A stretch of 64,000 nt of DNA, taken from Candidatus Nitrosotalea okcheonensis. GTDB taxonomy: Archaea > Thermoproteota > Nitrososphaeria > Nitrososphaerales > Nitrosopumilaceae. Positions 13,439 to 30,791 of this stretch are shown here, one piece after another. Location of the stretch: positions 265,073-329,072 of the forward strand of contig NZ_LT841358.1 of NCBI RefSeq assembly GCF_900177045.1, written 5' to 3'. The translations under genes and the position numbers were made by a program. The stretch's first letter is position 1. The number at the start of each line of letters is the position of its first letter. The notes below the pieces were generated by a model. The model did not search any database. It was given only the letters and a program-made list of their open reading frames with translations, and was not told the DNA's origin.

Positions 13439-15829
13439 CTATCTTATCATACTATGGGTTAGCTTGTCATGAATCTGTGCTAAAATGAGTTCTGCCTTCT
13501 CCTTATTCTCAAACGTCTCTACCTTCTCATCCATGATTGCATCAATTTCATAACTCTTGTCTACCAAAACATTTGCCACGTGATCATCTAGTGTACCATT
13601 ACCCATGAGATAATATGCAAAGACCGTATTTTTTTGTCCAATTCTGTGCAACCTGTCTTCTGCCTGTCTGTGTATTGCAGGACTCCAATCAAGTTCTGCA
13701 AATATTACATATCTTGCTCTGCTCAAGTTTATGCCTACATTTCCAGCTCTGAGGCCGGCAATTATCAGCTTGGTCTCACCATTTTGGAACCTGTCTATTC
13801 CCTCTTGCCTTTCCTTGTCACTCTGGCCTCCAATGATTGATGCAGGTGAATATTCTGAGAGGCTTCGGTGAAGTAATTCGTGGATTGCCTTGTGGTGGCA
13901 AAACACTACGACACTTTCTTCAATTTCCATGATGTTTTTGACAAACTCTATCACATGAGGAACTTTTGCTACGCCTGCAGCTTGCCTTTCGCTCTGTATT
14001 GCTCTCTTGTATGATGAAAATTTGTCAAAGGCGCTTGTTGCGCTTTTTTGCTCTTCTTCCAATCTCTCCCAAATTTTGCCAAGCTCTGTTTGGTAATAAT
14101 TGATATCTGAATCAATAAGCTCCTTGTACCTAACTTTATCCTTTAACTCCTTTAGAACATCAGATTTTTTTCGCCTTAGCATTACATGCTTGCGTAATTC
14201 TTCCCCTAGACTTGCACGCTTGTTTTCAAGAACGATTGCCTTTCCTTTTTCATTGACATAGCAAAAATATTCACAAAATTCATCAAATGTTCCCAGAAGC
14301 CCGGGCCTTAATATGTCCACAATCGGCCATATTTCAGAGCCTCTGTTGTAAATTGGTGTTCCAGATAGGCCTACTCTGTATTTGACAGAATCAAGCGCTG
14401 CAAGCTTTTTAACAGCTGTATATTTTTTAGTTGTCTTTGATCTGAGGTGTTGTACTTCATCGCATACAATTGTCTTGATGTTTAATTTGGCAAGATCGTC
14501 TATTCTCTTATGAAGTAAATCATAGTTTATGATGTAAACATCATATTTTCCCAGTTCTTGCGCCTTGCCTGTTCTTATCAAGACAGATGATGGATATTCA
14601 GACTCTGAAATTTTTCCGTTGCGACTACGTTTTTTGAGAAATTTTTGCGTCTCTCTCTGCCAGTTATTTAGTGTAACAAGTGGTGCTACAATTAATACTG
14701 GAAATGTTTGTTTTTCTGTCGCAAGATATGCCAAGGTCTGCACTGTATTGTGGGTTATAATTCCATTTGCAACATAATTGTGTGTCTGGGGAACCGATAT
14801 ATCATACACGTATCCTGAAAACTGTTTTTCATCAACTGACTTGACTGGACACCAGTTGACTGACTCTGCAGATATCTTGTGCAATTGTTGTGTCAAATTG
14901 TGATAATCTGGCTCTAACATTTTAGAAGACTGGAGGGCAAGTTGTTTACTCGTACCTTGGATGTATTTGTATTGTGTGTAAATGTCGGGGGAAAATGATA
15001 TTCCAGTCTCTGCAATTTTTTGTGATGGAAATACCGTTAATTCTGCAATATCTTTTGACGACTTGTCCTTTACAACATGTGCTGTTTTTGAGGGTACTGC
15101 AACTTTATCATTGACATTTAATTCGCCAGCTCTCTTCCATCCATCGGGAGTGAGAAATCTGTGACGCTTGGTACATTCTATCTCAGAACCATTTTTGAGA
15201 GTTATCTTTGTTATGGATTCATTAATTTTTTGCCTAAATACTCTGTTCACTTGTTTGGCAACTATGCTTTTTCCATCGAAAGTTTGTATACTTGTGGGAA
15301 TTTCCAGTCTGGCCCATTCTTCATCACCGCCCTTCTCTATGCTTTTTGCTCGCTTCCAAATCTTCTTGATTGCAATACTCCCGTTTGTTGTGCTGATTAG
15401 CGTATCGCCCTTTAGACACTTGCCTAGACCCATCTCGTCTGCTAGCAGTGCATTGCCGTATGATTTTAGTAGAAAATCAAGACCTTCTCTCTGAAAGTCA
15501 AGCAGGTTGCCGCGAAATTGGGGCCCGGGGCTTGCCTTGCGCAATTTTTCAATCCGTGTCCATTTTTTTTGCGGAACAATAACCTTGCGGACTTTTCTAT
15601 GCCATATTGATTTTGATCTTATCTCCAGCGGATATCTGTCCATTATCCATTTTATCTTCTCTACATTTTGTATCGTATCTGGTACTATGGCTTCTTCTGG
15701 GCCATTACCGTACCATGCATGAGGTATGACACGAGCTACCATGCTTACTGCTCTGGGGCCCGTAAGTTTCCAAGTCCAGTTTTTTGAATATGTGTCCAGA
15801 ACATATTCCAGGGTGCCAAATTCTTTCAT
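13439..15829 (-). CDS. SNF2-family ATPase interrupted by an intein in its P-loop
   Basis: The 796-residue precursor would splice to about 572 residues. The host has an N-terminal region, helicase motif I (D-E-M-G-L-G-K-T after splicing), the DEAH-like motif D-E-V-Q-H, S-G-T-P (motif III), and the C-terminal half with A-G-N-V-G-I-N-L (motif V) and D-R-L-H-R-I-G-Q (motif VI). SNF2 enzymes move along double-stranded DNA and remodel protein-DNA complexes; this one resembles the short archaeal/bacterial RapA/SMARCAL1-like group. The intein follows K137, between the Lys and Thr of the Walker A motif, so no ATPase forms until splicing. Convergent with the small gene ending at 13438. Confidence 0.9.
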   Translation of the reverse strand: MKEFGTLEYVLDTYSKNWTWKLTGPRAVSMVARVIPHAWYGNGPEEAIVPDTIQNVEKIKWIMDRYPLEIRSKSIWHRKVRKVIVPQKKWTRIEKLRKASPGPQFRGNLLDFQREGLDFLLKSYGNALLADEMGLGKCLKGDTLISTTNGSIAIKKIWKRAKSIEKGGDEEWARLEIPTSIQTFDGKSIVAKQVNRVFRQKINESITKITLKNGSEIECTKRHRFLTPDGWKRAGELNVNDKVAVPSKTAHVVKDKSSKDIAELTVFPSQKIAETGISFSPDIYTQYKYIQGTSKQLALQSSKMLEPDYHNLTQQLHKISAESVNWCPVKSVDEKQFSGYVYDISVPQTHNYVANGIITHNTVQTLAYLATEKQTFPVLIVAPLVTLNNWQRETQKFLKKRSRNGKISESEYPSSVLIRTGKAQELGKYDVYIINYDLLHKRIDDLAKLNIKTIVCDEVQHLRSKTTKKYTAVKKLAALDSVKYRVGLSGTPIYNRGSEIWPIVDILRPGLLGTFDEFCEYFCYVNEKGKAIVLENKRASLGEELRKHVMLRRKKSDVLKELKDKVRYKELIDSDINYYQTELGKIWERLEEEQKSATSAFDKFSSYKRAIQSERQAAGVAKVPHVIEFVKNIMEIEESVVVFCHHKAIHELLHRSLSEYSPASIIGGQSDKERQEGIDRFQNGETKLIIAGLRAGNVGINLSRARYVIFAELDWSPAIHRQAEDRLHRIGQKNTVFAYYLMGNGTLDDHVANVLVDKSYEIDAIMDEKVETFENKEKAELILAQIHDKLTHSMIR
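14747..15418 (-). other. Mini-intein in the SNF2 Walker A motif
   Basis: Precursor residues 138-361 (224 residues) form an intein. Residue 1 is Cys (C-L-K-G-D-T-L-I, block A). Block B has T220-x2-H223 followed by F-L and a W-K-R-A-G-E-L stretch. Block F is G-Y-V-Y-D-I-S-V, and block G is H-N-Y-V-A-N-G-I-I-T-H-N ending in His360-Asn361, with Thr362 as the +1 extein residue. The roughly 75 residues between blocks B and F contain no LAGLIDADG or other endonuclease motif, so this is a splicing-only element that cannot home by itself. Confidence 0.9.
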
Positions 15830-27141: not shown

Positions 27142-27174
27142 AATGTTACAGGTAACATTGTTCATGAACAATGT
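27142..27174. promoter_or_regulatory. Two overlapping palindromes upstream of the Ig-repeat gene
   Basis: AATGTTAC and GTAACATT face each other across two bases (27142-27159). A perfect 20-base palindrome (ACATTGTTCATGAACAATGT, 27155-27174) shares five bases with it. The pair ends 42 bases before the chosen ATG (27216) and overlaps the start of the longer ATG at 27171. Mutually exclusive RNA hairpins or adjacent operator sites would both fit. Confidence 0.6.
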
Positions 27175-27215
27175 ATAACAATTCTTTATTTGAAGAATAT
27201 TGGAGATCATGCGAG

Positions 27216-30200
27216 ATGGATCTAAAGATTTTACTCTTCGTCTCCATCGTTGCGGTGATGGTTTTTCCTCAATATGCTTTTTCCGCCGAACCTGACTCGA
27301 ACAGTTCTGATACTATAATATCTAATTCTACAATATCTAATTCTACCAATTCCACCATTGTGCCCAAACCAAATATTGTAATTGATTCTACATCAAGTAA
27401 AGTTATATCAAATCCTAGCACCTCAAGTCAAGGTTCCCCCATATCGTTAACTGTGAAAGTCATGGACACATCAAACTTGCCAACTACTCCTACAGGTTCT
27501 GTAACCTGGAGTGACGGCAACCTTGGCGGTACATTTAGTCCATCTTCGTGTACCATCTCATCCGGCAATTGTACCGTCTCATATGCGCCTCCGGCAAATC
27601 ATGCTGGTACGATAACAGTAACCTCGAATTATGGCGGGGATACAACGCATTCTGCCAGCACTGGCACATTTGCCTTGACTGTGACGACAATTCATAGTGT
27701 CACCACTACCATAACCTCTACCACCAGCTCAAATTCTAAAGTACAATTTACCGCAACGCTTGTTGATACGTCCAACCCTCAAATTGCCCCTACAGGTTCT
27801 GTAACCTGGAGTGACGGCAACCTTGGCGGTACATTCAGCCAATCATCATGTATTCTTTCATCCGGCAGTTGTACCGTATCATATACTCCTATTGCAAATT
27901 ATGGAAGCAACATACTGATAACCACTAGTTATGAAAGTGATGGAACGTTTTCCACCAGCACTGGAACATTCACTCTGATGGTACACCCTCTGCCCAGTAC
28001 TACTCTTACAGTAACACCAAGTACTGCTACTGTGAACCGCGGATCTCAGGTACGGTTTACTGCTACAGTAGTGGATGTTTCTAAATTGACAACAGTTCAA
28101 ACTGGCTCTGTAACCTGGAGTGACGGCAACCTTGGCGGTACATTTAGTCCATCTTCGTGTACCCTTTCATCCGGCAGTTGTACAGTATCATATACTCCTA
28201 CAACTACATCAAACCTAGTAACAGTTACCGGTAGATATGCTACAAATAATGAATATTCTGGCAGTGCTGGTACCTCTATTCTAACAATAACTTCTCTAGC
28301 TGATACTACAACAAAAGTCACACCAAGCACTGCTACTATAAATCAAGGATCTCAGATACAGTTTACGGCAATTGTGACTGGTGCATCTAGATCACAAATT
28401 GTCCCTACAGGTTCTGTAACCTGGAGTGACGGCAACCTTGGCGGTACATTTAGTCCATCTTCGTGTACCCTCTCATCCGGCAGTTGTACCGTATCATATA
28501 CAGCACCACTCAATTATGGCGGTACGATAACAATCGCTACTAATTATAATGGAGATGTCGCACACTCTGGCAGCACTGGCACATCTACTTTGGCGCTAGA
28601 TGTACTGCATAATACCATAACCACTGTTACACCTAATACTGCTACCGTGGCACAGGGATCGAAGGTACAATTTACTGCAACACTTGCAGATGTTTCCATC
28701 TCATCAATTGTAACTGGGAACGTGTCATGGAGTGATGGCAACGCAGGGGGTTCATTTGACACTGCCTCATGCACGCTTTCATCTAATGCATGCACTGTAT
28801 TTTATACACCATCTGCGTCTTCTACAAATGCAGTTACAATCACTGCTACGTATGCAGGAGATAGTGCACACTCTGGTAGTTTTGGTACCGCACAATCTAC
28901 GATAATCATACTTCCACATTCACTCTTGTTGAGCACTGATCAGTCATACTATGCATACGGTGATGTAGTCACACTCTCTGTAAATCTTCCAGGCCAAAGC
29001 TTACAAAGTATTGCAGTTGGGGTGTCAAATCCAAGTGGTGACAATATTATATCCAGGACTATAACTACTGATGAAAACGGTACTGGCTCTTTACAATTCA
29101 AGATACCGAATACATATCAAACTGGCGTCTATCGAGATATTGTGAATACAAATGTTGATGGTAGAAACTATACTAATTCAACCGAGTTTAACGTAATAAA
29201 ATCACGCGGCGTTTCTATTGACTCGGTACAAATCACAAATCAACAAGGAAATCCAGTTTCAGTTCTGCCACAGGGCCAAAATGGATTTGTCAAAGTTTCA
29301 CTCTCATCGGGAGAAAAAATGCCGGCCCTCTTGACACTCAATCTATTTGATGCAAACCAAAGTAGTCTTGGTACCACATCTATCAAGTCCATCTTAAACC
29401 CGGGAACATCTCAAATGACTCTGTCGTTTTTCATACCCTCGAATGTACAGGTGGGAGTAGCAAATGTCTTCACTGATGTGTATTCGGACTGGCCAACTAA
29501 TGGTGGAACGCCGCTCACTGCAGAGTCTTGTCTTGCAGCAGACCTTCAGGATGTGTCAACACTTCCTGCCTCATACGTTTCATTCGTACCGCATGCATGC
29601 ACAACTTCTGCCAGCAAGGTGCCTGGAGCTGGAAACGTATTATCCACTGCAATGACAAATAACCAAGCTGAAATTACACTTGGAGTCGTGATTCAAAATG
29701 ACTCTATGACATTTATGAGTCCTACACAGGCTCATCTTCTTGCACTCGCGTATCAAAATAACACTGGCCAAAATATGATCCACAATTCCATAGGAACAGT
29801 AAATGTGAGTCTTAACAGTCTTGGTACTAATGGAACAAGTATCGGAACTATTGGTAATGCTACCAGAATCGGACCTGCACAATTTACAACCTTGGCAGGT
29901 CCTAATATTCAAAATAATCCCGTGGCACTGAAAATTTTACAAGAAATCCAAGCATCAAAGAGGCAAGTGGCAAATATACTGGGGAACCAGACAGCAGCAC
30001 AACTTGATCAGCAGTTGATACTGCAGCAGCGACAGTCTGCTGCCAGTCAACTCAAACAAGACTTATCTGCACTTGCAGTGGCAAGTGCATCCACCACACC
30101 CGATGCAGCATATGTCCACTTTCTTACAACCGTGACTGACAACAGGACTCAATCTGTATTTCAAAATGAGTTTAATTTCATGAAACAAAGAATTGCAGTT

Positions 30201-30791
30201 GCAAATACTGCAATGCAGTCTGTTATTAATGGCGGTGGAAGTCTAGACCAAGCACTTGTCACCTTTAACAAATATGCCACCGTAAACCACGTTCAAATGG
30301 TCAGCCTTAACAATGAACTAAATGTTGCATATGGTCTTGCAAACAGCAAAATTCAGTCTTGTTTTAACAATGCGGGACAACTAACGGTCGTAAATGGAGT
30401 GAATCCATGTATTGCAAATATTGCAAACAATTCTACCGGACCGACTGGAATCTCAATAGTATCGGTACAACCAACCGACCAGCAAGGAAACCCAGTATCT
30501 TTAATCAATAGAGGACAGACAGGATACGTAAAAGTTGTAATTGATTCCAACGCGAGTACACAATCTCTCATAACAGTAAACATCTTTGATTCCAATGTGA
30601 GCAGTCTTGGTACTGCATCTGCCCAGTATGCGCTAAGCCCGGGACAATCTGAAGTAATTCTGCCTTATTATGTTCCAGCCCAATCAGGAACTGGACTTGC
30701 AAGTGTTTATGCAAATGTATTTACTGACTGGCCAAACAAAGGAGGAACATCACAATCAAATGAATTATCATACTTTGTCGGTCTTTCATGA
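27216..30791 (+). CDS. Giant secreted surface protein with Ig-like repeats
   Basis: From ATG 27216 (signal peptide, A-F-S-A end) the protein has 1191 residues; an ATG 45 bases upstream would put 15 extra residues before the signal. After an Asn/Ser-rich stretch it has five Ig-like (Big/Ig_5-type) domains of about 100 residues, each with the G-S-V-T-W-S-D-G-N-L-G-G-T-F core (less exact in the fifth), then an MG2-like domain. A pair of matching domains with Q-G-N-P-V-S ... F-T-D-W-P follows, separated by a long Gln/Ala helical region. It has no C-terminal anchor. Many N-x-S/T sites suggest glycosylation. It probably acts in the cell surface or adhesion. Confidence 0.85.
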   Translation: MDLKILLFVSIVAVMVFPQYAFSAEPDSNSSDTIISNSTISNSTNSTIVPKPNIVIDSTSSKVISNPSTSSQGSPISLTVKVMDTSNLPTTPTGSVTWSDGNLGGTFSPSSCTISSGNCTVSYAPPANHAGTITVTSNYGGDTTHSASTGTFALTVTTIHSVTTTITSTTSSNSKVQFTATLVDTSNPQIAPTGSVTWSDGNLGGTFSQSSCILSSGSCTVSYTPIANYGSNILITTSYESDGTFSTSTGTFTLMVHPLPSTTLTVTPSTATVNRGSQVRFTATVVDVSKLTTVQTGSVTWSDGNLGGTFSPSSCTLSSGSCTVSYTPTTTSNLVTVTGRYATNNEYSGSAGTSILTITSLADTTTKVTPSTATINQGSQIQFTAIVTGASRSQIVPTGSVTWSDGNLGGTFSPSSCTLSSGSCTVSYTAPLNYGGTITIATNYNGDVAHSGSTGTSTLALDVLHNTITTVTPNTATVAQGSKVQFTATLADVSISSIVTGNVSWSDGNAGGSFDTASCTLSSNACTVFYTPSASSTNAVTITATYAGDSAHSGSFGTAQSTIIILPHSLLLSTDQSYYAYGDVVTLSVNLPGQSLQSIAVGVSNPSGDNIISRTITTDENGTGSLQFKIPNTYQTGVYRDIVNTNVDGRNYTNSTEFNVIKSRGVSIDSVQITNQQGNPVSVLPQGQNGFVKVSLSSGEKMPALLTLNLFDANQSSLGTTSIKSILNPGTSQMTLSFFIPSNVQVGVANVFTDVYSDWPTNGGTPLTAESCLAADLQDVSTLPASYVSFVPHACTTSASKVPGAGNVLSTAMTNNQAEITLGVVIQNDSMTFMSPTQAHLLALAYQNNTGQNMIHNSIGTVNVSLNSLGTNGTSIGTIGNATRIGPAQFTTLAGPNIQNNPVALKILQEIQASKRQVANILGNQTAAQLDQQLILQQRQSAASQLKQDLSALAVASASTTPDAAYVHFLTTVTDNRTQSVFQNEFNFMKQRIAVANTAMQSVINGGGSLDQALVTFNKYATVNHVQMVSLNNELNVAYGLANSKIQSCFNNAGQLTVVNGVNPCIANIANNSTGPTGISIVSVQPTDQQGNPVSLINRGQTGYVKVVIDSNASTQSLITVNIFDSNVSSLGTASAQYALSPGQSEVILPYYVPAQSGTGLASVYANVFTDWPNKGGTSQSNELSYFVGLS
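27495..28475 (+). repeat. Near-identical DNA repeats within the Ig domains
   Basis: Copies starting at 27495, 27795, 28104 and 28410 are almost identical over about 60 bases, starting at G-G-T/C-T-C-T-G and running through the G-D-L-G-G-T region; a fifth at 28715 is diverged. Spacing is 300, 309 and 306 bases. The DNA between the cores differs far more, which points to recent exchange or selection on the core. Confidence 0.8.

Follow-up and report, generated by a model that had tools for sequence, protein, structure and literature searches.

We analysed a window of 64,000 nucleotides (the whole stretch of DNA under study) from Candidatus Nitrosotalea okcheonensis, in a genome that consists of a single contig of 1.97 Mb. 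The window carries a gene for an SNF2-family ATPase whose Walker A motif is split by an intein (Table 1). The open reading frame is uninterrupted over all 796 translated codons, and host motifs I (LADEMGLGKT), II (CDEVQH) and VI (QAEDRLHRIGQ) are all present. SNF2-rel_dom (PF00176, 4.7e-38, a match divided by the insert) and Helicase_C (PF00271, 1.6e-17) are found in the precursor, bearing out the SNF2 host proposed in a first-pass annotation of this DNA, and the SNF2-rel_dom score is higher in orthologues without the insert. That annotation had also called the product a chromatin or DNA-repair motor. This would be a family-level assignment only; the nearest solved structure is an archaeal snf2/rad54-family helicase core (5.7e-48). 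Nitrosopumilus, Nitrosarchaeum and Nitrosopelagicus have the host gene too, at 71-76% identity, and the thaumarchaeal origin suggested earlier is supported. A plasmid search returned bacterial SNF2 proteins about 33% identical over the exteins, none of them with this intein.

Table 1. Features of the split SNF2 gene (window positions), with a distant phage counterpart
Feature	Position	Strand	Remarks
SNF2-family ATPase gene with intein	13439..15829	(-)	796 aa precursor; 572 aa once spliced
N-extein, residues 1-137, with terminal Walker A GLGK	15419..15829	(-)	
C-extein, residues 362-796: remaining SNF2 motor and helicase C domain	13439..14746	(-)	
Mini-intein, 224 aa, Cys1 to Asn224 (precursor residues 138-361)	14747..15418	(-)	
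Cys1 codon, block A nucleophile	15416..15418	(-)	invariant in 27/27 homologues
Block B-like T83-K-R-H86, conserved Cys82 just before	15161..15172	(-)	
C-terminal His223-Asn224, block G	14747..14752	(-)	
+1 Thr (Thr362), which becomes the Walker A Thr after splicing	14744..14746	(-)	
Endonuclease-deletion junction, approximate	15026..15040	(-)	from alignment with HEN-bearing G007 and G010
Endonuclease scar or former linker, intein residues 113-185	14864..15082	(-)	omega about 0.5 in the window lineage
Phage SNF2-like helicase with intein	L221:1552-5937, L222:8552-12937	(+)	IMGVR_UViG_3300027861_004541

The boundaries of the insert can be placed to the base, exactly where the first-pass annotation had put them. 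The N-extein ends in LLADEMGLGK, its GLGK closing at Lys137 (codon 15419-15421), and the C-extein opens with TVQTLAYLAT at residue 362, so that the Walker A motif is cut precisely between Lys and Thr, as had been claimed (GLGK/T, the slash marking the junction). Excising the insert in silico gives LLADEMGLGKTVQTLAYLAT, identical to the sequence of the empty alleles; the predicted spliced-junction peptide is LLADEMGLGK-TVQTLAYLATEK, and empty-site orthologues are 569-572 aa long. The block B TxxH of a class 1 intein is present as T83-K-R-H86, and the end GIITHN before Thr, written VYDISVPQTHNYVANGIITHN/T, fits block F/G with His-Asn and a +1 Cys, Ser or Thr. In an alignment of the window intein with 26 homologues from the same site, Cys82 beside block B is kept in all 27.

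Profiles confirm the mini-intein at both ends: NCBIfam intein_Nterm (TIGR01445) matches intein residues 1-90 at 1.5e-14 and intein_Cterm (TIGR01443) matches at 4.3e-9, while Pfam Intein_splicing (PF14890) matches the insert at 1.6e-25, values that chance cannot explain. A failure of the intein models, named in the first-pass annotation as a refutation, is thus not what was seen. Its best PDB match is the Ssp DnaB intein (1e-13, or 8e-16 using a seven-sequence profile). Phage helicase and RecA inteins match at 24-26%, which we read as general intein homology. An AlphaFold model from seven sequences (the window intein and six relatives) was poor (pLDDT 41) and lends no support from structure.

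We surveyed 37 Nitrosotalea genomes for the site; the host gene was found in 36 and its intein state could be read in 34, two genomes being unreadable where the contig is incomplete at GLGK/T. Many of the surveyed relatives are metagenome bins. Sixteen genomes have only the empty site (17 empty alleles are present in the genus), and the named relatives with an empty site are Candidatus Nitrosotalea species. The insert is therefore missing from relatives and not present in them as a normal domain, which answers the other refuting condition set out with the original call. The intein is present in 18 of the 37 genomes, as a mini form (163-224 aa) in 10 and with a homing endonuclease (HEN) in eight (424-428 aa where complete). 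Family-wide it occurs in 28 of 250 genomes; the ten carriers outside the genus (among 213 genomes) also have it at GLGK/T, three of them as a large form (424-425 aa) and the other seven as a mini form (190-240 aa). In bin G008 (7% contaminated) an empty and a HEN-bearing allele lie on separate contigs (L019/L050), and the contig of G046 (L038) terminates at the intein junction; together the two cases suggest mixed strains in the samples. The SNF2 orthologue of G049 (L043:241-4305, minus strand) carries two inteins, one at GLGK/T and a second in motif VI (QAEDR/C...HN/CHRIGQ) with Cys in place of the usual Leu.

The window protein matched no endonuclease family in the profile search, and its intein is 585 nt short of the HEN-bearing alleles, in line with the earlier statement that a homing endonuclease is absent. 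Those alleles are inserted at the identical codon boundary, and the flanks of the deletion are homologous to the window intein. The large alleles of the genus that were tested match LAGLIDADG_3 (PF14528) with E-values of 3.4e-12 to 9.1e-8, the lowest belonging to the two-intein G049. Most pairs that retain the endonuclease have a HEN omega of 0.05-0.15 (pairwise Nei-Gojobori, dS being near saturation in some pairs), so many of these enzymes, judged by what is known of their family, are probably active or recently active. The first intein of G049 has FDAGGHV for FDAEGHV, the acidic residue of the second HEN motif being gone, and its endonuclease looks degenerate.

Scars of endonuclease loss differ from lineage to lineage. 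The window intein has a separate 12-nt deletion just downstream of the main one, between CAAAAAATTG repeats. In G006 and G003 direct repeats of the ATTGCAGA type bound the deletion; this scar may have arisen in one event from a large allele or through a second step of 33 nt from the window form. The deletion amounts to 651 nt in G004 and, measured against its large sister G016, to 606 nt in G017. The mini-intein of the window retains a post-endonuclease linker of about 55 residues. On the family-wide intein tree the HEN label changes at least seven times, five changes being forced by strongly supported branches, and a losses-only reading gives 11 mini lineages. The endonuclease has evidently been lost repeatedly.

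We conclude, with little room for doubt, that the insert is a class 1 mini-intein (Cys1...His-Asn/Thr) whose ancestor at this Walker A position was a homing intein with an endonuclease. Class 1 splicing proceeds by an acyl shift, a transfer, Asn cyclization and ligation. Here the precursor would be translated, the intein would fold and excise itself by an acyl shift at Cys1, transfer to Thr+1 and cyclization of Asn224, and Lys137 would be joined to Thr362, if the chemistry is that of the family. Ligation would give back GLGKT and with it a functional SNF2 ATPase. By its sequence the unspliced precursor has no contiguous P-loop, as the first-pass annotation held. The endonuclease was removed by an internal in-frame deletion. 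On this reading the splicing domain persists for two reasons: the host protein works only after splicing, and loss demands a precise deletion or replacement by an empty allele.

Presence and absence of the intein were also placed on a host-extein tree of 32 rows. They require 12 changes, at least 10 of them forced by strong branches, and shuffled states require 10.9 on average; intein state is therefore uncoupled from descent of the host gene. A single ancestral intein inherited vertically without turnover was rejected, since the host tree demands 10-12 changes. No intein is present in the sister pair G015/G048, whose spliced proteins share 563 and 562 of 572 residues with that of the window (about 98%); the nearest intein-bearing relative of the window is G006. 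In G003 (L014) a tract of about 300 nt directly 3' of the site is identical to G013 at 283 of 300 positions and to its sister G006 at 247 of 300, while on both sides of the tract G003 resembles G006. We take the tract to show recombination abutting the insertion site, not homing of this intein. Both the tract and the HEN-bearing relatives of the same allele within the genus could speak for a window intein that is still mobile, served in trans by an endonuclease from such relatives, and not only vertically kept. We consider this unlikely: the tract leaves out the intein itself, and the mini-inteins of G000 (the genome of the window), G003 and G006 are related, these genomes also lying near one another in the marker tree, which is what vertical descent predicts.

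Selection was compared between G000 and G006. By the same pairwise measure, with its near-saturated dS in some pairs, omega is 0.009 for the exteins; within the intein it is 0.17 for the N half, 0.19 for the C half and 0.48 for the scar. The natural reading of this pattern is that a strongly constrained host would need splicing and that the former endonuclease region has decayed.

Inteins cluster in the P-loops of replication, recombination and repair ATPases, Rad54/SWI-SNF2 being a listed host (PMC5874633); the intein alleles of bacterial Rad54/SWI-SNF2 proteins share the host type of the window intein but are bacterial (PMC5874633). Bacterial too are the hosts of the sll1366 type, whereas the window host is archaeal; the profile of this intein-prone helicase family (NF058636) matches weakly (E 0.043), and its end coincides with the residue that aligns to Lys137. 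A phage SNF2-like helicase (IMGVR_UViG_3300027861_004541) has a HEN-bearing intein at GAGK/T and is a distant relative, 28-31% identical over its full length. Its neighbours are a sigma-70-like factor and NAD-synthesis genes, and given the sigma-70-like factor the virus is probably bacterial. For halobacterial intein alleles such as cdc21-a, empty, large and mini states coexist among relatives and were read as a homing cycle, as here, but in other host genes and another archaeal class (PMC4071816); the cycle is reviewed in PMC8966425. A literature search on Nitrosotalea and Nitrosopumilus inteins found no description of this allele, an absence that is no proof of its being undescribed. P-loop inteins, including those in SNF2 proteins, are already known; what is unusual is the completeness of the allelic series.

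The closest functional precedents are two P-loop inteins that show that splicing at this position can be conditional (PMC6195587). DnaBi1 of Mycobacterium smegmatis is, like the window intein, a HEN-less mini-intein in a P-loop whose +1 residue belongs to that loop: it is inserted beside the Mg-coordinating Ser, and the same Ser acts as +1 residue in catalysis (PMC6195587). It differs in being described as a class 3 intein, in a hexameric replicative helicase, and is inhibited by oxidation in experiments (PMC6195587), whereas the window intein has Cys1, as in class 1, sits in an SNF2 protein and has Thr at +1. The RadA intein of Pyrococcus horikoshii is archaeal and, as here, interrupts a DNA-processing ATPase at its P-loop (PMC6195587), and its structures (2lqm, 4e2u) match the window intein weakly in sequence; its host is a recombinase, and intein-extein conditional splicing is demonstrated for it (PMC5790916).

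These likenesses of position (PMC6195587 and, for RadA, PMC5790916) speak for the first-pass proposal that splicing is a regulatory switch. Spelled out, redox state, metal, temperature or DNA binding would act through splicing to gate the motor, and this would be why the mini form was kept. Cys82, conserved in all 27 homologues, could pair with Cys1. Purifying selection on the splicing domain also fits, but a plain parasite obliged to splice predicts such selection equally. Against a switch, 16 congeneric genomes are intein-free with a near-identical host (98% in the nearest), and presence and absence look random on the host tree; so free a turnover between hosts this alike speaks against a switch that is needed. 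Consistent retention is expected of a switch, whereas 16 of the 34 readable Nitrosotalea genomes have no intein at the site. These comparisons do not support the proposal, and we hold it to be very improbable. We would give equally little weight to a narrower form of it, in which the mini form, after HEN loss in about eleven lineages, was selectively kept as a redox- or substrate-responsive gate through Cys82 and Cys1. A splicing-dead remnant or ordinary inserted domain, in a protein that works unspliced or is a pseudogene, is the least credible reading, as the insert would disrupt the Walker A motif, the catalytic positions are all intact and the intein halves are under purifying selection; an ordinary domain was rejected on the exact empty sites, and a pseudogene on the intact ORF and a host omega of about 0.01.

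Other loci came to notice, two of them elsewhere in the genome of the window. Near 1450356-1450739 of G000:C1 (L003:700-2820, minus strand) a radical-SAM protein that looks AmrS-like is split by an intein in its Cys motif (TGCNWL/C...HN/CQYC), which has a DUF559/REase-type nuclease stretch (PF04480, 2.8e-8) and not LAGLIDADG. Near 1690803-1691066 (L002:796-2721, plus strand) a LAGLIDADG-like intein lies in a dehydrogenase-like protein at GGH/C. At 27171-30791 of the window (plus strand) is a 1206-aa ORF with repeat units of the GSVTWSDGNLGGTFSPSSCTLSSGSCTVSYT type, probably a secreted repeat protein.

The SNF2 intein shows no new mechanism. As read from the letters, it is a remnant of the homing cycle, and at its single site, within a single genus, empty, endonuclease-bearing, degenerate-looking and mini states stand side by side. 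This natural series is suited to testing the homing-cycle model, endonuclease loss and the passive retention of minimal inteins, and several of its inteins, compact and minimized by nature (163-224 aa), may be of use as splicing tools.
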